Source: a virus. Taken from it: DNA of 24,711 nucleotides. The DNA lies in IMG/VR virus record IMGVR_UViG_3300005096_000094, positions 1 through 24,711 of that record. One strand, written 5' to 3'. Both the position numbers and the translations under genes were made by a program. Under the pieces are notes generated by a model, which was not told the DNA's origin, searched no databases, and worked only from the letters and a program-made list of their open reading frames with translations. Below, one piece after another: positions 81 through 24,371 of the stretch (positions are counted from its first letter, which is position 1; each line of letters opens with the position of its first letter).

Positions 81-2201
81 GTGTTTGTTTTGGTTGGAGC
101 ACTAATAGCAGGCACCCATACGAAGTCGCTATATACCGCTGAGGGTGGCACGCCGAATACTGGTAAAAGTAATCGGGATGAATATTTTAACGAAGATGCT
201 CAACGATGGGATGGGGTGCTACCGAAAAACGATGATCCCGGTGCTGCTGATGGTGATTCAAATCATTATTTAGTTCTCGATATTCGTGGTCAATATGGCC
301 CACCCGTTTTCACTAATTTATTGTTCGACGATAGAAATTCAGCCCGGATCACGCTTTATTGGGACGGCCCGGCTGCGAAGTTACACGTCGTTAGCATTCA
401 CGGCACAAAATCAATTTCGTGGATGGTGAATTACGATCCGCTAATTGATGACTATTCGTACGGGATAGGGGCGGGCGGTAGGGATGGTGGAATAACAATC
501 CCCCAAGTTAACCGGATAAGTGTTGGAAAAACTTTCGCTTTAACAAAAACGCCAAATGGAAAGTTATGGCTTTTTGGCACAAGTACAAACAGTCTGAAAT
601 TTCAGTGTAGTAGTGATGACGGCGCTAGCTGGCTACCAAATGAAATTAATTTGGCTGCAATAAATGGAGTAGGTTCTGTCGATTGTTGTTGGTTTACAGA
701 GTTGGGCGTTAATTACCCATGTGTTTTTGCATCGGAAGACGACTTAATAACCGGGGCAGAACAGTACTTTTTTTATATAGACGAAGATAATTTAGATGTA
801 ACAGTCCCTGGGAATTGGATCAATGACAGTGCAAATATCCCTGCATTAGATGCTGGTGCATTAGCAGATGACCACGTCTGCATGGCAGTGCATGTGCCAA
901 CGGGCAAAACATTCATCGTATACAAAGATAGTCTTAACAACATAAAGTTTGTTACCAGAACTTCTAGCGGTGTGTGGGAAGGGACTTACGAACCATGGAA
1001 TGCGTCGTCGTTAAAGACGCGCCCTACGCTCGCTATAAAAGACATAGATGGCGCTTCAGGGCAGGAACTTATTATATTTGTTACCAGAGGTGCTAATGGT
1101 CAGCAGGTAACGTATAGAACCACACCACTCGATGTAATTAATTTTTCAGCGTCGACAGTTATCATTGAAGACACGAGCAACACCAACCGTAATTTTAATG
1201 ATACTCGGGTAATTCAGGGGGACTTAACGTATACAGCTGAGTCTGGCGTACTCGTAATTGCAGATCATGTGCTTAATGCTGAGCAGTGGTACGGCTCGAT
1301 AGCCATTACTGCTCCACAGATTATTGATGTACCTGCTGCATCGCAGAGCATTACTAGTTATTCGCCTGCTGTTGCAGCATCAGAAAATCAGTTAATTGAT
1401 GTCCCTCGTACTGATCTGAATTTAATCAGTCTCGCGCCGGTCATTGATGTTACTGCGCATGTGCGCAGCAATGTTCCGGCAGCGTCGTTGTTCTTGACTG
1501 GAGAACAGCCGGTCATCGATGTGAGTGCTGATGAGATAGTTGATGTGCCGTTAGCTGCGCTTAACATTAATGCTAGTGCACCAGACGTAAATGCATCTGG
1601 TAATCAGTTGATTGATATTCCGGCGGCCGCGCTTGGGCTTGTCGGTTATCTGCCTGTTGCTGTGGCATCAGAACATCAGTCGGTCAATATACCGTTAGCT
1701 GTGTTGGAGTTGAGCGGTTTCGCGCCGAATATTAATGCTGATTCGAGCATTAATGTTGCGGTGCCCGTCGCGGCGCTTTCTGTTGTCGGGTTATCGCCTG
1801 CAGTAAATGCAGGCGGTAATCAAACGGTCAATGTACCGTTGACCGCGCTTAGCCTTGTCGCTAATGCGCCAGTTGTGAATGCAGCTGATGATCAGGTGGT
1901 TGATGTTCCTGCGGCAACGTTAACGGTCACCGGTTATCTACCGCTGATTGCTACTGGTGCGAATATTACAGTTGATCCTGGTAGTGGTGCGTTGACGTTA
2001 ACAGGGCAGGCCCCTGCGGTTGAAACTACTGGGCTGGTTACAATAGAGGTGCCTGTTGCGGCACTTGGTGTCACGGGATATGTGCCGATTATTGATAGCG
2101 GTTTAGTGTTGGTGACGCCAGACGGCCGGGTATTTGTGATTGCGGCTGATGATCGAGTTTTTGAAATCCAGTTAGATGATGGTGCTTGTACGATCCAATG
2201 A
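81..2201 (+). CDS. Large phage fiber or decoration-type protein: Asp-box domain plus eleven 24-residue repeats
   Basis: This 706-residue protein has two parts. Residues about 20 to 410 look beta-rich and contain one sialidase-type Asp box, SSDDGASW at 177-184, suggesting a BNR-like propeller. Residues 414 to about 676 are eleven degenerate repeats of the pattern VPxAxLxLxGxxPxVxA. The C-terminal tail (TPDGRVFVIAADDRVFEIQ) is of a kind I recall from phage structural proteins. The start is the GTG at 81, the first start codon in the frame, which is open back to 45; TTG 90 is possible, and a beginning lost to a frameshift near the window edge cannot be excluded. It overlaps the next gene by ATGA. 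A virion surface role, perhaps glycan binding, is inferred; no catalytic set is visible. Confidence 0.75.
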   Translation: MFVLVGALIAGTHTKSLYTAEGGTPNTGKSNRDEYFNEDAQRWDGVLPKNDDPGAADGDSNHYLVLDIRGQYGPPVFTNLLFDDRNSARITLYWDGPAAKLHVVSIHGTKSISWMVNYDPLIDDYSYGIGAGGRDGGITIPQVNRISVGKTFALTKTPNGKLWLFGTSTNSLKFQCSSDDGASWLPNEINLAAINGVGSVDCCWFTELGVNYPCVFASEDDLITGAEQYFFYIDEDNLDVTVPGNWINDSANIPALDAGALADDHVCMAVHVPTGKTFIVYKDSLNNIKFVTRTSSGVWEGTYEPWNASSLKTRPTLAIKDIDGASGQELIIFVTRGANGQQVTYRTTPLDVINFSASTVIIEDTSNTNRNFNDTRVIQGDLTYTAESGVLVIADHVLNAEQWYGSIAITAPQIIDVPAASQSITSYSPAVAASENQLIDVPRTDLNLISLAPVIDVTAHVRSNVPAASLFLTGEQPVIDVSADEIVDVPLAALNINASAPDVNASGNQLIDIPAAALGLVGYLPVAVASEHQSVNIPLAVLELSGFAPNINADSSINVAVPVAALSVVGLSPAVNAGGNQTVNVPLTALSLVANAPVVNAADDQVVDVPAATLTVTGYLPLIATGANITVDPGSGALTLTGQAPAVETTGLVTIEVPVAALGVTGYVPIIDSGLVLVTPDGRVFVIAADDRVFEIQLDDGACTIQ
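1320..2108 (+). repeat. Eleven in-frame degenerate repeats of about 72 bases (24 residues)
   Basis: The units begin with a V/I-D-V/I-P type motif and carry xAxLxLxGxxPxV, often ending in N-Q or D-Q before the next unit; units starting VDVPLAAL, IDIPAAAL, VNVPLTAL and IEVPVAAL show the pattern well. The period is 22 to 25 residues. Conservation is at the protein level and the DNA copies have diverged, so recent slippage is unlikely. Such repeats probably form a rod or stacked beta fold; this is inferred. Confidence 0.85.
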
Positions 2202-2644
2202 ATCAATCAGAATTAAAAGAAGCAAAAGAGCATTTAACACGCGTAATTGCACCGACATTAACGCCTAACATTCGTGGTTTATTTCAAGTTCGGCTGCTGG
2301 GTCTGCATCGATATCACGCTGAAATAGTCATCAATATTGTTAATCAACAACGCAAGGTTTTGAAGGCATTTGGTAGGCAGATTATAAAGGTTGGTGACGC
2401 GGTAGTCGTCGACCAGTTTTCATCTCACGTAACGTTGGCGCCCAATACACCATCTGTTGAGGCCTATTTTCAGGCCTGGCTGATCGGCGTTAATGCTGAA
2501 AATACTGAAGCAGAAATATCATTGCGTCTTGTAGACGGCGATCGAAAAGAGTTAATAAATTTTGGTTCAACGGTGCGTGAGCCGGGGAAAGCCATCACGT
2601 TGATGGGCGTGGATATTACAGCAACTATTATACCTAAGGGCTGA
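2198..2644 (+). CDS. Conserved-looking phage protein of unknown function, 148 aa
   Basis: The ATG at 2198 overlaps the stop of the preceding gene (ATGA), so translation is probably coupled; a TTG at 2186 would add four residues but is less likely. After a short charged N-terminal helix (SELKEAKEHLTRV) the protein alternates hydrophobic and polar residues in probable beta strands (FQVRLLGLHRYHAEIVINIV, AYFQAWLIGV, AEISLRLV), suggesting a beta-sandwich. There is no signal peptide, membrane segment or catalytic motif. Its place between a fiber-like gene and the terminase suggests a virion accessory or assembly partner. I do not recognise the family. Confidence 0.7.
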   Translation: MNQSELKEAKEHLTRVIAPTLTPNIRGLFQVRLLGLHRYHAEIVINIVNQQRKVLKAFGRQIIKVGDAVVVDQFSSHVTLAPNTPSVEAYFQAWLIGVNAENTEAEISLRLVDGDRKELINFGSTVREPGKAITLMGVDITATIIPKG

Positions 2645-2647
2645 CCA

Positions 2648-2959
2648 ATGAAAAAAATCAAAGAGATTGCAAAAAGACGGCTTAAAGAAATTGAGCTTGC
2701 AACAGTGCGCATTAAGGCGAAGATAGAAAGCATGCCGGATGATCCGCGTAAAGAGGCGTGGGAAAAGCGTCTTGCTGAATATGAAATCAGCAAGGCCTCG
2801 CTTGCGATTGAATTAAAATCTGGTGTGGCAGTTAAAGTCAAAGACAAAAAACAGCAGCAGTTAATTGCTGCAATGAGGGGTGGCGATCAGGTGCCATCAC
2901 CAACAGGTGGTGTGACAGTGCCGGTACCGGCCGGTGATTTAAGTATGGAGGGTAAGTAA
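2648..2959 (+). CDS. Small helical, lysine-rich phage protein, 103 aa
   Basis: Residues 1 to about 60 are highly charged with heptad-like hydrophobics (KKIKEIAKRRLKEIELATVR then RKEAWEKRLAEYEISKASLA), consistent with a coiled coil or helical hairpin broken at MPDDP. The C-terminal 40 residues are rich in Gly, Pro and Val and look disordered. It starts 3 bases after the previous stop and ends exactly where the next gene begins. Size and composition suggest an assembly or connector accessory, but nothing identifies a function. Confidence 0.65.
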   Translation: MKKIKEIAKRRLKEIELATVRIKAKIESMPDDPRKEAWEKRLAEYEISKASLAIELKSGVAVKVKDKKQQQLIAAMRGGDQVPSPTGGVTVPVPAGDLSMEGK

Positions 2960-3412
2960 ATGGCTGCTAATGCCTGGGCGTTCTATGACCATTTCCCGGA
3001 AATAAAGGGTGACGGCACCATTGATATGGATGCCGATACTTTTAATGCGGGTCTGTATCTCTCCACGTCAAATGCTGCGGATCTAACGTTGACTACTCGT
3101 GCGTCACTAACTAACGAGCACGCGGCTGCAAACGGTTACACGCAGCCAGGCAGTGCGCTGGCGTCTGTCACCTGGTCTCGTATCAATAACATTACAACGT
3201 TTGATAGTGCTGATGAAGTGTTTTCAGCGGCGGGTGGTTCAATCGTCGCGAGGTTCTGTGTGATTGATGATGACACTGTCAGTGCTCCGCTGATTGATCC
3301 TCTGTGTTGTTACGCGCTAATGGACAATACACCCGCAGATGTAACGGTGACTGATACAAATGCACTGACAATTGCAATGAATGTTAATGGCATTGCTACA
3401 TTCTCAACCTGA
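2960..3412 (+). CDS. Probable virion protein of a widespread phage family, 150 aa
   Basis: The ATG directly follows the previous stop and has a strong Shine-Dalgarno site, GGAGGG at 2947-2952. The opening, WAFYDHFPEIKGDGTIDMDADTF, then LYLSTSN, LTNEHAAANGY and GGSIVARFCVIDDD, resembles a common phage family of about 150 residues whose members I remember as uncharacterised structural proteins near fiber or capsid genes. Predicted all-beta, with no catalytic motif. It overlaps the next start by one base (TGATG). Decoration protein or fiber adaptor are the likely roles; this is inference from family recollection and context. Confidence 0.7.
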   Translation: MAANAWAFYDHFPEIKGDGTIDMDADTFNAGLYLSTSNAADLTLTTRASLTNEHAAANGYTQPGSALASVTWSRINNITTFDSADEVFSAAGGSIVARFCVIDDDTVSAPLIDPLCCYALMDNTPADVTVTDTNALTIAMNVNGIATFST

Positions 3413-3723
3413 TGCCCGTTTATGATCTCAGCAAGACAGCGCCGGTTATCGCCGTTGACAAAAGTCGGCGGGATTTCTGGGAATGGGATTTCTCCCGTTG
3501 GGCAGATGCTGGTGACACAGTTGAGTCACTGGTTATTACAGCGCCAACTGGTATCACGCTGATTTCACAAGCGCCTGTGAAGGCGGGCATGGCAGTGCAA
3601 GCGTGGTTCTCTTTTGAGGGTGCGACTGAGGGCCAGGAATATAAAGTAGAAGCGCATGTGGTAATGACTCCCAGTGGACGGGAAAATGATTTCCCGATTA
3701 ATTTTTATGTGTTTGAGCGTTAG
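3412..3723 (+). CDS. Small Ig-like or beta-sandwich phage protein, 103 aa
   Basis: Translation is probably coupled to the upstream gene because the stop and start share a base and no Shine-Dalgarno site is visible. The sequence contains WEWDFSRWADAGDTVESLVI, APTGITLISQAPVKAGMAVQ and EYKVEAHVVMTPSGRENDFP, a strand pattern like the small Ig-like domains that accompany phage fiber and decoration proteins. No signal peptide or catalytic residues. It is the last gene of the block before the terminase. Probably a virion accessory paired with the 150-residue protein. Confidence 0.65.
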   Translation: MPVYDLSKTAPVIAVDKSRRDFWEWDFSRWADAGDTVESLVITAPTGITLISQAPVKAGMAVQAWFSFEGATEGQEYKVEAHVVMTPSGRENDFPINFYVFER

Positions 3724-8324: not shown

Positions 8325-9662
8325 ATGTACGACAGAATCGCAGCACAAGTATTTAACACTCCGCTGTTGGTAGAGGCTGCACGGTTGGATGTGGTTGCTG
8401 CTGTGGTTGCCTTGCGTATGGGTATTCAGGGGGTCACTGCGCCTGAGTGGGATGAAAAAGCACCTGAAATGACGGTGCCAGAAGATGCGGAGTTTAATGC
8501 TGATGGTGGCTACTACGTCACGACAGACGGCATTGGCATCATCGGCATGATGGGCACGATGATCCACCGTGGCGGCTTTATGAGTTCACTCAGTGGTCTC
8601 ACCAGTTACACGGCTATAAAAAAACAGTTTAAACATTCCATGGTTAACCCGGCGGTAAAAGGTGTTTTGCTAGATGCCAATACGCCTGGTGGTTCGGCTG
8701 CGGGTGCATTTGATACTGGCGACTTTATCTACCAGTCGCGTGGTACTAAGCCTGTCTACTCAATCGCTGAAGACATGATGACCTCAGCCGGGTACCTGTT
8801 GGGTTCGCCGGTAGACCGTGTCTATACCACGCAAACAGGACGCGTAGGCTCCATTGGTGTTGTGATGCAGCATATGGACTTTTCAAAAATGAATGAGAAG
8901 CGTGGTCTTGCCCCAACATATATTTATGCTGGTGACCAGAAGATAGACGGTGCGCCTGATCTGCCATTGAGCCCTGAGGCGCATGCACGTTTTCAGGAGG
9001 ATATTAATCAGCTCTATAACATGTTTGTAGCGGCAATTGATCGCAATCGTTCTAATCTTTCAACAGATGTTATTCGAGATACACAGGCCGGTGTCTATAT
9101 GGGACAGCAAGCAGTCGATATTGGTCTGGTGGATGAAGTCGCCAACATCGAAGAAGTTTTGGATCAGATGAGATCCGATATCAAGGGTGCGGGTTCGCGC
9201 CATATTTCAACTATTGGTATGGAGGATACAACAATGCCAGCAGAAGCAAATCAGGGAGAGCAGGATAAACAGCTCAGTACTGATACTAAAACTGGGTCAT
9301 CAATCAGCGAGCCCGATGCAAAAGCAACGCAAGCCAAAAAGGCCGAAACTGCAACCGCAAATGGTGCATCGGCAGAGCGTGCCCGGATCAAAACAATTAT
9401 GTCCAGCGATCATGCTACGGGGCGTAAAGAGCAGGCTGAGCATCTGGCGTATAGTACGGAGATGTCAGCGGAAGCCGCCATCGATGTGCTAAAGGCAGGC
9501 GCGTCATCTGTGAAGCCGGCTGGTAAAAAGCTGGATGATGCGATGGCGAAAACTAAACAGCCTGGGATTGGTGCGGAGGGCGGTCAGGCGGAAGTAAATG
9601 ACGTTGATCGCCTGTGCTCAAACTTTGCAATGGCTTCGGGTCAAAAAAAGGGGATTAAATAA
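8325..9662 (+). CDS. C: Head maturation protease, S49 family (lambda gpC-like), with scaffold C-terminus
   Basis: The start is ATG 8325 with GGAG at 8315-8318; a longer frame back to GTG 8295 would read through the T-tract. Length is 445 residues (lambda gpC 439). The SppA/ClpP-like fold shows GVLLDANTPGG at 113-123, catalytic Ser154 in MTSAGY and the probable catalytic Lys206 in AGDQKIDG, a 52-residue spacing typical of gpC. The segment from about 300 on is Gln-, Lys- and Ala-rich, low in complexity and helical, as expected of the scaffold part. The enzyme degrades scaffold and processes the portal inside the prohead. The stop overlaps the gpD start (TAATG). Confidence 0.94.
   Translation: MYDRIAAQVFNTPLLVEAARLDVVAAVVALRMGIQGVTAPEWDEKAPEMTVPEDAEFNADGGYYVTTDGIGIIGMMGTMIHRGGFMSSLSGLTSYTAIKKQFKHSMVNPAVKGVLLDANTPGGSAAGAFDTGDFIYQSRGTKPVYSIAEDMMTSAGYLLGSPVDRVYTTQTGRVGSIGVVMQHMDFSKMNEKRGLAPTYIYAGDQKIDGAPDLPLSPEAHARFQEDINQLYNMFVAAIDRNRSNLSTDVIRDTQAGVYMGQQAVDIGLVDEVANIEEVLDQMRSDIKGAGSRHISTIGMEDTTMPAEANQGEQDKQLSTDTKTGSSISEPDAKATQAKKAETATANGASAERARIKTIMSSDHATGRKEQAEHLAYSTEMSAEAAIDVLKAGASSVKPAGKKLDDAMAKTKQPGIGAEGGQAEVNDVDRLCSNFAMASGQKKGIK
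9234..9662 (+). CDS. nu3: Nested in-frame scaffold protein, Nu3-like
   Basis: Within the protease frame, ATG 9234 (codon 304) is preceded by a perfect GGAGG at 9221-9225 with 8 bases between, much stronger than an internal Met would have by chance. The product would be 142 residues, starting MPAEANQGEQDKQ, rich in Ala, Lys, Glu and Gln, with helical segments ERARIKTIMSS and EAAIDVLKAGA. Lambda Nu3 is made the same way from inside C and directs capsid assembly before gpC removes it. The ribosome site and composition are seen; separate expression is inferred from lambda. Confidence 0.8.
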   Translation: MPAEANQGEQDKQLSTDTKTGSSISEPDAKATQAKKAETATANGASAERARIKTIMSSDHATGRKEQAEHLAYSTEMSAEAAIDVLKAGASSVKPAGKKLDDAMAKTKQPGIGAEGGQAEVNDVDRLCSNFAMASGQKKGIK

Positions 9663-11106: not shown

Positions 11107-11508
11107 ATGTCAGAAAAACTTTATTTAACTGGCTCTATTTCGGTTGGGCGGGGTAAGAAAGGAAAGGAAAAGATTGGTGCAGGTACGAAAGTCACCAGCA
11201 TTGATTGGCCAGATAAAAAGTATGGTATCGGTGATAAAGATCTTGAGCGTATGTTGCGCAGTGGGTCGGCATCATTTGATTCTAGTGGAGATTTTCAAGC
11301 TATTCCCGCTCAAAAAATCAATATTACTGTTGATCAAAAACGGCTGGCCGCATTCAGCAAAGCAATCGCTTTGCTAGAGTCGAGTAATGAAGGGCATTGG
11401 AATCAAGGCGGTGCGCCAGAAGTCTCCGCGCTAAAAGAACAGGGTTTTGAGACTACCGTAGAAGAGCGTGATGCCGTATGGGGAATCCTTGAGCCACTGC
11501 TAGGTTAG
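11107..11508 (+). CDS. gpFI-like DNA packaging or head accessory protein
   Basis: This 133-residue protein is in the position of lambda FI (132 aa), directly after the major capsid gene. Residues 1-55 (KKGKEKIGAGTKVTSIDWPD then GIGDKDLERMLRSGSA) are a small beta domain. The C-terminal 50 residues, with HWNQGGAPEVSALKEQGFET followed by VEERDAVWGILE, resemble a short helical module I recall in many phage head accessory proteins (HWxxxGxPxVxALE...ERDAAW). gpFI helps terminase dock on the prohead in lambda. The ribosome site is AAGG(T)G near 11095. The family call rests on position and the C-terminal motif. Confidence 0.7.
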   Translation: MSEKLYLTGSISVGRGKKGKEKIGAGTKVTSIDWPDKKYGIGDKDLERMLRSGSASFDSSGDFQAIPAQKINITVDQKRLAAFSKAIALLESSNEGHWNQGGAPEVSALKEQGFETTVEERDAVWGILEPLLG

Positions 11509-11517
11509 TTCTAAACC

Positions 11518-11545
11518 GCAGGCTTTTAACTTTATAGTAGCCTGC
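11518..11545 (+). promoter_or_regulatory. Inverted repeat enclosing a possible -10 box upstream of the cytochrome gene
   Basis: GCAGGCT (11518-11524) and AGCCTGC (11539-11545) are a perfect 7-bp inverted repeat around 14 AT-rich bases. A TATAGT box lies at 11533-11538 in the loop, and ACT/AGT can add an inner stem. No T-tract follows. The best -35 (near 11510) matches only about half of the consensus, so this would be a weak or regulated promoter, with the repeat acting as an operator or RNA hairpin. The repeat is certain; the promoter role is tentative. Confidence 0.4.
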
Positions 11546-11578
11546 ACAACCCAACCCAAAACCAAGGAGAAATAAACA

Positions 11579-11914
11579 ATGAGAATTCGCATATTATCCC
11601 TCGCCCTGGCGCTTCTGGGTCCAGCTTTTATGTTGCCCAGCTACTCAGTAGCTGGCGATGTTTTAGCTGTACCAGAAGTGTTCCAGGCATCAAGTGATGT
11701 GCTCTATACCATTGATCAGCCCGCGCAGTGTGCAAGCTGCCATAGCCAGAGTATGAGCGCGCAGGCGGTCGCGAAGTATTTGGGCGTCACTAGTCCGGTA
11801 GTCGTTAAGTTTGTGGGTATTAGAGAGCGTCATAAGCAGTCTTGTGTTAACTGCCACAAAAAAACAACAGGTGCTCAGGCGGTCGCCTCGCATCGAATGT
11901 CACGCTTAATCTAG
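11579..11914 (+). CDS. Secreted diheme c-type cytochrome-like protein (moron gene)
   Basis: This 111-residue protein starts with a clear Sec signal peptide (basic MRIR, hydrophobic 5-20, probable cut after SVA at 25). The mature part has two CXXCH heme c sites, C51-ASCH55 and C89-VNCH93. Each is followed after five residues by AQAVA, so the protein seems to be two copies of one module 38 residues apart. H85 and H105 could serve as distal ligands. Maturation would take place in the periplasm using the host Ccm system. The ribosome site is AAGGAG at 11564-11569. The gene sits between the FI- and FII-like head genes, where lambda has none, and is followed by its own terminator. Electron transfer or respiration of the infected host is a plausible role. 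No specific cytochrome family is recognised. Confidence 0.85.
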   Translation: MRIRILSLALALLGPAFMLPSYSVAGDVLAVPEVFQASSDVLYTIDQPAQCASCHSQSMSAQAVAKYLGVTSPVVVKFVGIRERHKQSCVNCHKKTTGAQAVASHRMSRLI

Positions 11915-11934
11915 TAAAACAAAAACGATAAATC

Positions 11935-11963
11935 AAAAGGCCGGGTAATTGCCCGGCCTTTTT
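11935..11963 (+). terminator. Strong intrinsic terminator after the cytochrome gene
   Basis: AAAAGGCCGGG (11935-11945) and CCCGGCCTTTT (11952-11962) form an 11-bp perfect stem with loop TAATTG, ending in five T (11959-11963). The complementary strand also ends in a short T-run, so some bidirectional activity is possible. It lies inside the late operon, so it must be read through or antiterminated for the tail genes to be made. Confidence 0.93.
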
Positions 11964-11980
11964 AATTGAAGGGAAAGGTA

Positions 11981-12319
11981 ATGCCAAAGCGTGGTGATGA
12001 TTTAGACGCTATTACTGCAGCGGTAGGTCTTGAGCACCTGGCGAATGCAACGGTCACTATCACCCCAAAACCCTATATTGCAGTACACCCAGATATAAAT
12101 AAATCCGTACCGGTGGACGTAATCGCCGAACAGCGTTACCCGGAGGGTACAAAGATCGAGGCTTTTGTCTGGACGATATTGGCTGAGAAGAAGGTTTTTG
12201 ATGATGCTGGTATCGGTGTGGGTGCCATGGTGCGCATGCCGGATGGTAAGGATAAGGCTATTGTGGAGCGTGAGCCGGTGGAATCTGATGATGTTGTGAC
12301 GATGTGGGTATTGCAATGA
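11981..12319 (+). CDS. Head-tail attachment or head completion protein, gpFII-like
   Basis: Length is 112 residues (lambda FII 117) from ATG 11981, with an AAGG-type ribosome site at 11969-11979; a TTG 15 bases upstream is less likely. The order of strands, ending in GVGAMVRMPDGKDKAIVERE then PVESDDVVTMWVLQ, is the pattern of small head completion proteins that bind below the portal and accept the tail. It lies immediately before gpZ, as FII does in lambda. Sequence similarity to FII itself is weak by eye, so position carries much of the call. Confidence 0.68.
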   Translation: MPKRGDDLDAITAAVGLEHLANATVTITPKPYIAVHPDINKSVPVDVIAEQRYPEGTKIEAFVWTILAEKKVFDDAGIGVGAMVRMPDGKDKAIVEREPVESDDVVTMWVLQ

Positions 12320-23526: not shown

Positions 23527-23859
23527 TTAGCGCTCCAGATTTAGCAGCATCATTAACGCGTCGGCCGCCTCATCAGCAAAAACATACTGTAAAATGTACT
23601 GTCGTATGTAACTAGCAATGCGCTTTGGGCAGGGCACTACCCCGCTTCGCCAGTCCATTAATCGCTGCGTTTTTGTTTTAAGGTCAAATTTATTGTTGAT
23701 CTCATCGATAATGTCCTGGTGGGAGTCAATATCATCCCGCCGCAGCTGTAGCACAATATAAGCGGCCACCGATTTGTCAGCATATCGCTCGACATTAGAG
23801 TCCGCTAGTAGCTGTTGGAGCCGCTGCGCGGTATCTGTGTGGATGTGGTCGTTAATCAT
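23527..23859 (-). CDS. Small probable helix-turn-helix protein, 110 aa
   Basis: The C-terminal half contains a plausible DNA-binding helix-turn-helix at about residues 47-85 (IDEINNKFDLKTKTQRLMDW, RSGVVPCPKRIASYIRQYIL), with the WRSG turn typical of phage-type regulators that recognise an operator. The N-terminal half is helical (RLQQLLADSNVERYADKSVA). It overlaps the upstream gene by 4 bases (ATGA) and directly precedes the 140-residue protein. It could regulate its own operon or the late genes, or act with its neighbour. A tentative call; no effector domain is visible. Confidence 0.65.
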   Translation of the reverse strand: MINDHIHTDTAQRLQQLLADSNVERYADKSVAAYIVLQLRRDDIDSHQDIIDEINNKFDLKTKTQRLMDWRSGVVPCPKRIASYIRQYILQYVFADEAADALMMLLNLER

Positions 23860-24371
23860 GCGCGTGTTTTCGGTTGGGATTGATAAAAAACATCTGCTGA
23901 TTTTCCAGCAAAACCGATCATTCCGCTAAATCCTTTTCCATCGTTGGCCCACTCATCGGCCCTGCGTCTAATCCAGTACTCCATGTCCTGGATGTCAACG
24001 CCGCCAGCATAATGATTTAAAACTTTAACTCCAGTTGCTGCGGCGTTATAAAATTCATCCCAATCATTAGCCTGTATTAATTTAATAAATCGATTCTCGT
24101 TTATATCAAATCCAGTGGGCCGTTTATCAACTGAACATTTTCCCCAGGATTTTATAAACCCAGCGTCAGAATTATCTTTTTTTGATTTTGCCATTAAGGC
24201 CAGCATTGTTGCTTTTCCCTCGTCCTGGTTTTTGGGCCAGGGGAAGTTTATTTTTTTTAGCCGAAAGAAAGTTTTGGACATCATTATTTCGTTTAAACTT
24301 TTGCAGTGACGTAATTCAACTACGTCATGGTGTCCAATATCAAAATCAGAAATTTTTAATATTATTTTCAT
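23856..24371 (-). CDS. Hypothetical protein, 171 aa, minus-strand cassette
   Basis: The ATG at 24371 overlaps the upstream stop by 4 bases (ATGA), so translation is coupled. The product starts MKIILKISDFDIGHHDVVEL and contains FFRLKKINFPWPKNQDEGKA, NENRFIKLIQANDWDEFYNA and DMEYWIRRRADEWANDGKGF. It looks soluble and mixed alpha-beta, with several Trp residues and no signal peptide or recognised motif. The gene looks more AT-rich than the tail genes. Function unknown; an accessory factor for host interaction is only a contextual guess. Confidence 0.65.
   Translation of the reverse strand: MKIILKISDFDIGHHDVVELRHCKSLNEIMMSKTFFRLKKINFPWPKNQDEGKATMLALMAKSKKDNSDAGFIKSWGKCSVDKRPTGFDINENRFIKLIQANDWDEFYNAAATGVKVLNHYAGGVDIQDMEYWIRRRADEWANDGKGFSGMIGFAGKSADVFYQSQPKTRA

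Follow-up and report, generated by a model that had tools for sequence, protein, structure and literature searches.

Why should a tailed phage hold, between two genes of its head operon, a gene for a small exported protein with two heme-attachment motifs, and what might such a protein do? The window analysed here, an IMG/VR virus record 24,711 bases long, contains late genes of a lambda-like tailed phage (coordinates refer to the window and its plus strand unless another contig or strand is named). The gene in question, at 11579-11914, encodes an exported-looking protein of 111 residues with two CXXCH sites, and the open reading frame, its coordinates, its length and both sites are exactly as the initial annotation had given them. 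We give a probability of about 0.42 to the interpretation that the product is an accessory, exported, periplasmic diheme c-type cytochrome that would carry electrons and whose gene has been added to the head operon.

The protein has the look of a small exported protein with heme-attachment sites, and most of its features are shared with the one other allele that we have found. A Shine-Dalgarno-like AGGAG (11565-11569; AGGAAG in the homologue) precedes the start codon, and the first 25 residues form a candidate signal peptide (11579-11653), likely cut after SVA, in which a basic n-region, a hydrophobic core and an alanine at -1 can be recognised by eye. The mean hydropathy of its best 11 residues is 2.4, and 2.6 in the homologue, whose signal peptide ends in AMA and differs in sequence but keeps the same design, diverged but valid as judged by eye and hydropathy; the annotated signal peptide is therefore seen in both alleles by these two means. 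The first heme-attachment site, CASCH (residues 51-55, 11729-11743), is invariant, and the second, CVNCH (residues 89-93, 11843-11857), reads CANCH in the homologue. His85 (11831-11833), four positions before the first cysteine of the second site, is also invariant and is the one candidate distal ligand conserved between the two alleles, Met59 being replaced by isoleucine and His105 by proline in the homologue. His85 could serve as distal ligand of one heme. The second heme lacks a conserved histidine or methionine partner; it may have five ligands only, or its sixth may come from a lysine or from another subunit. CXXCH is present in no other stop-to-stop frame of at least 60 amino acids in the six frames of the whole window, and because both sites are in addition kept in the homologue, the pair of motifs is not a product of chance. 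An AlphaFold2 model built from the two sequences was too poor to use (pLDDT 50, pTM 0.31).

The proposed location between FI- and FII-like head genes holds, and the order of the head genes matched by Pfam fits it: a lambda-type decoration protein D (HDPD, E 9e-23), capsid protein E (E 3.6e-61) and a GPZ-like protein (E 2e-13) follow one another, and gpW is also recognised in the window, the labels FI, FII, terminase and portal being given by position. The protein of the upstream FI-like gene (11107-11508) has matches among PHROGs of unknown function only (phrog_2498, E 7e-6), and that of the downstream FII-like gene (11981-12319), which has the conserved start MPKRGDDLDA, has no family match in Pfam or PHROGs. 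Hairpins lie on both sides of the diheme gene. The upstream one (11518-11545, -13.9 kcal/mol, z -3.3) has no U run, and a hairpin of similar kind (z -2.8) precedes the homologue on the related contig L002, described below; the downstream one (11935-11962, z -3.9) is terminator-like with its U run mostly within the stem. A consensus scan calls this second hairpin a terminator on the minus strand only, which we think reflects the position of the plus-strand U run mostly inside the stem. A scan for sigma-70-type matches found no promoter just upstream of the diheme gene.

Searches with the single protein gave no relative in viral contigs, in phages (E<=1) or in plasmids (E<=0.1), and homologues were reached through the neighbouring genes, starting from matches to the capsid protein. 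Contig 3300029949_000034 (L002) has a homologue at its positions 11541-11879 and contig 3300029226_000146 (L008) has the same allele from its position 9335, so that the gene occupies the corresponding position of the operon in related phages. L002 and L008 are 96-97% identical to each other over two long stretches and therefore count as one further allele and not two. At the protein level this allele is 60% identical to that of the window, and both CXXCH sites, His85 and the segments SPVVVKF and TTGAQAVAS are kept in both. Conservation of CXXCH among homologues, as expected of a c-type cytochrome, is thus found across two alleles, and homologues devoid of these sites, named in the initial annotation as an observation that would count against heme attachment, were not seen, the single further allele having both. 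When a DNA pattern was taken from the region of the first site, it matched L002 and L008 only, the homologue as query gave no match in phages, and none of 174 candidate stretches in genome_contigs was confirmed as a cellular homologue. We also note that the capsid proteins of L002 and L008 differ (89% and 53% identical to that of the window, respectively) and that their FI-like proteins are identical only past about the first 30 residues, a pattern that we read as mosaic exchange of the capsid block.

Absence of the gene from other relatives is informative about how it came to its present position. A region of at most 3 kb following the capsid match was scanned for frames with two CXXCH motifs in 32 loci, which are partly non-independent (one of them, L015, is 99.98% identical to part of L008). 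Such a frame occurs in two of the 25 loci with the full 3 kb, L002 and L008, and in none of the seven shorter loci; a single CXXCH in a frame of at least 30 residues occurs in seven of the 32, in five of these on the other strand. A two-CXXCH frame is missing downstream of the capsid gene in Alteromonas phage P24 and in Marinobacter phages PS3 and PS6. The most informative locus, a short phage-derived contig of a Gammaproteobacteria MAG (L018), has the arrangement FI-terminator-FII without the diheme gene, and its FI and FII are homologous to those of the window (E 2e-20 and 2e-12 in single comparisons). The counterpart of the 11935-11962 hairpin stands directly after FI in this empty site. 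The terminator-like hairpin is separated from the FI stop codon by 26 bases in L018 and by about 427 and 415 in the window and L002, respectively. The diheme gene thus lies after FI and before a hairpin that the empty site has as well, and the simplest reading is that the gene was gained in one phage lineage, although L018 may instead have lost it. Terminator-like hairpins follow both the capsid gene (1875-1939) and the FI gene (2318-2383) of L018, and the head operon therefore appears to be punctuated by intergenic hairpins.

Comparison of the window with L002 also draws attention to regions remote from the head genes. The 21 kb of L002 compared contain no counterpart of five genes upstream of the presumed small terminase (81-3723); these include one for a 706-residue protein with repeated VPxAAL-like segments, as seen by eye, one for a phrog_644 protein and one for a gp77-like fibre-tail adaptor, and probably form a fibre or adaptor module in an unusual position. 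At 23856-24371 on the minus strand, a gene encodes a 171-residue protein resembling Cas11e/Cse2, the small Cascade subunit of type I-E systems (PADLOC PDLC01344, E 2e-7; Pfam PF09485, E 1.5e-4, with 22.6 bits against a cut-off of 24.6). PADLOC has no match in its three minus-strand neighbours, and the protein has no relative in phages or viral contigs and no PDB sequence match; the gene is near the contig end, and further genes may be missing there. A lone phage-borne Cas11 look-alike of this kind could be a decoy or an anti-CRISPR.

The diheme gene appears to be under coding constraint, but of a looser kind than its neighbours. Of the 93 differences in 102 aligned codons, about 58 are nonsynonymous, compared with 76% expected (p 0.002). 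The dN/dS of the full gene is 0.39, whereas FII has 0.12 and the capsid gene 0.13, all measured against L008; constraint looser than in the neighbouring genes would fit an accessory gene. In a core of 54 codons coding constraint is not clear, the differences being distributed 3/8/9 over the codon positions with a dN/dS of 0.43 (p 0.055), and the shifted frames giving 0.92 and 0.32. The alleles differ by indels in the N-terminal third, and they differ at the C-terminus as a consequence of a pentanucleotide repeat: CCTCG is present once in the window (11886-11890) and three times in the L002 and L008 homologue, so that the window copy is ten bases (two units) shorter and its last residues are read in another frame. 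Beyond the repeat, three of the seven base differences (two AAA/AAG and one TAA/TAG) are silent in the frame of the homologue, hinting that the homologue's C-terminal tail may be the older one. The repeat could be a slippage switch, or its variation simple drift. The weaker constraint and the C-terminal frameshift are both signs of an accessory gene, perhaps one under loose selection.

At the DNA level, the core of the gene differs unusually little between the two lineages. Between the window and L002, identity in 100-base windows is 82-91% over aligned positions 11751-12001, compared with 64-73% within FI and 63-71% within FII. Synonymous differences in the core number 7.5 in 35.8 sites (0.21), whereas all other gene pairs compared have values of 0.44-0.82, and the chance of so few is 0.006 at the rate of the small terminase, the least diverged gene, and 2e-9 at that of the capsid gene. 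This suggests that the core and the hairpin may have been exchanged between phages recently, with nucleotide constraint as a possible alternative in this comparison of two alleles. The segment 11725-11930 has no unusual folding (z -0.73), and none of the 20 listed Rfam matches reaches its gathering score. G+C content is 50.9% in the diheme gene, 45.3% in FI and 49.6% in FII, a modest difference.

Can the protein be assigned to a cytochrome family or traced to a cellular source? The two heme contexts resemble each other, in that AQAVA follows five residues past each CXXCH site and CAGGCGGTCGC occurs at 11762-11772 and again at 11876-11886, both as annotated. The contexts share five matches, and at least as many are present in 118 of 20,000 CXXCH-keeping shuffles (112 of 20,000 are as good for the homologue, a result that is not independent of the window copy). 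The internal similarity is thus modest, and with about 0.6% of shuffles equalling it, the internally duplicated heme module that had been proposed from it appears weakly supported.

Apart from PF09699, searches of Pfam, PHROGs, NCBIfam, PADLOC and PDB sequences gave matches that are CXXCH-driven, sub-threshold or insignificant. The window protein scores 26.7 bits (E 4.5e-6, the best E-value obtained) and the homologue 26.1 bits against PF22113 (MtrC/MtrF domain II/IV), with a gathering cut-off of 30. Of nine CXXCH-keeping shuffles, eight also match (E<=0.1), of which one reaches 26.1 bits and the other seven 15.4-21.5; we dropped this assignment because the real proteins rank top but not clear of the shuffles. 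PF22113 is common in the class sampled (25 of 56 genomes at E<=0.001, 15 of them over the cut-off). Against PF09699 (Paired_CXXCH_1) the window protein scores 21.3 bits, 0.7 over the gathering cut-off of 20.6, and the homologue 16.4, with two of nine CXXCH-keeping shuffles listed at 14.2 and 17.2 bits. The homologue matches Cytochrom_C at 21.3 bits, equal to the cut-off of 21.3, over 30 residues, and the window protein is not among the matches to PF13435 (cytochrome c554) at E<=1. From these comparisons no known cytochrome family can be claimed, and the search of phage genomes likewise gave no match. The initial designation as a diheme c-type cytochrome-like protein fares well as to the exported-looking form and the two conserved CXXCH sites, but less so in that no family stands out clearly beyond the shuffles and only one candidate ligand histidine is conserved. 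We note that CXXCH-driven profile matches can mislead the annotation of short phage proteins.

A profile of the diheme protein (A1) was searched in 369 genomes of the class of L018 and 398 of its phylum, samples that overlap, and gave one match at E<=0.001 in the class sample and five at E<=0.01 in the phylum sample. The best cellular match (L041) is a 578-residue multiheme protein with a c554 domain (E 9e-5), with z scores against shuffles of 2.6 for the window protein and 4.5 for the homologue. Its five relatives have z scores of -1.0 to 0.9 and -0.5 to 1.5, respectively, and we rejected it as evidence of origin because these relatives are no better than shuffles and because it is the best pick of several hundred genomes. 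No other clear relatives were found in phage, plasmid or sampled Pseudomonadota genomes. As to the host, an MCP search of 54 genomes of the order of L018 gave E<=1e-20 in L018's own genome only, the window has no tRNA, and the best capsid matches include Alteromonas and Marinobacter phages and also a Clavibacter phage; L018 together with the Alteromonas and Marinobacter matches suggests that the host may be a gammaproteobacterium.

There are several plausible explanations to consider, of which we regard an electron carrier as the likeliest, with envelope modification and a passenger role as serious rivals. For an electron carrier, an accessory, moron-like gene would have joined the head operon of one lambda-like tailed phage lineage; its product would be exported by Sec, as the signal peptide suggests, would acquire two covalent hemes from the host Ccm machinery at the two conserved CXXCH sites, and would serve in the periplasm as a small diheme cytochrome that hands on electrons within the host envelope, with host respiration possibly sustained or redirected late in infection, where both the timing and the benefit are presumed. 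An exported CXXCH protein in a Ccm-bearing host normally gains covalent heme through the Sec and Ccm pathways, and heme binding is likely here. A bound heme need not make an electron shuttle, and the single conserved distal histidine for two CXXCH sites would suit a protein with one five-coordinate heme that serves at the envelope in lysogenic conversion or superinfection exclusion, or as a heme sensor, scavenger or peroxidase. Phage morons often act at the envelope, but four family libraries give no functional signature and the sequence points to no partner, and we consider such a role somewhat unlikely. CxxC...CxxC pairs form zinc sites too, and that the exported product holds zinc or some other metal in place of heme, or uses its CXXC pairs as disulphides, is improbable given that histidine follows both pairs in both alleles, that the signal peptide is as in c-type cytochromes and that exported zinc ribbons are uncommon.

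Whether the gene has a function at all is a separate consideration. A captured piece of a host multiheme cytochrome, now a neutral or decaying passenger, might be expected to have the dN/dS of about 0.39, the N-terminal indels, the C-terminal frameshift and the 3/8/9 distribution in the core that we observe. However, the two alleles each retain the open frame, a signal peptide and the pair of CXXCH sites while flanking synonymous sites are near saturation, the full gene has a synonymous excess (p 0.002), and no close cellular source emerged from the 174 genome_contigs stretches, and on balance we consider a passenger unlikely. The low divergence of 11751-12001 and of the core synonymous sites, the lowest seen, could also reflect a conserved DNA or RNA element, recombinational or regulatory, that reaches into the terminator and for which the reading frame is incidental. 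We regard this as highly improbable, since the segment has neither an unusual fold nor an Rfam match at gathering score, the alleles have the frame, the start and the CXXCH pairs in common along with a signal peptide, and recent exchange explains the low divergence equally well. Returning to the electron carrier, a more elaborate version can be envisaged in which a phage-specific family of minimal diheme cytochromes was built by duplication of a heme module, spread as an exchangeable block of the head operon, and taps or reroutes host periplasmic electron flow late in infection, with the pentanucleotide repeat perhaps switching the C-terminus; as a whole this is distinctly doubtful.

If heme is bound, the case shows that the genomes of tailed phages can include, within a conserved part, a small and self-contained electron carrier of the periplasm that is no evident copy of a host enzyme; one short gene would then make phage manipulation of respiration late in infection testable. 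We found no description of this gene in the literature on phage cytochromes, multiheme AMGs and morons, a survey in which subscription journals are little covered; the excerpted text of PMC10159854 has nothing on viral cytochromes, and a marine study, as far as its excerpted text extends, did not observe cytochromes or similar electron carriers in the nitrogen-cycle phages that it describes (PMC8115048). With modules of PF22113, PF09699 and PF13435 the protein shares two CXXCH sites at comparable spacing. The gene resembles a phage moron, as outlined in part of PMC2266997, in being an extra gene at a conserved junction between phage genes that is absent from a relative, here the empty site of L018, but it differs in that no sigma-70-type promoter of its own was found just upstream and in that the empty site has the terminator-like hairpin as well, which therefore need not have arrived together with the gene. 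The nearest described cases, within the available portions of the two papers, are phage soxD (PMC8190135) and the multiheme cytochromes of Borgs (PMC9605863). Phage soxC and soxD are auxiliary metabolic genes of sulfur phages, and SoxD has cytochrome c motifs; like the diheme gene, soxD is phage-borne, is expected to encode a c-type heme protein and to touch host electron transfer, but SoxD can be recognised as homologous to a subunit of a host enzyme and the diheme protein has no recognisable host homologue. Neither of the two phage SoxD proteins has the second heme motif, and one is without the first as well (PMC8190135, in part), whereas the diheme protein keeps both CXXCH sites. Borgs are likewise extrachromosomal elements with c-type cytochromes that may widen the redox capacity of their hosts, but they are giant elements of archaea in which a single protein can have as many as 32 heme motifs (PMC9605863, in part), and here a protein of 111 residues with two such sites is encoded within the head operon of a tailed phage.
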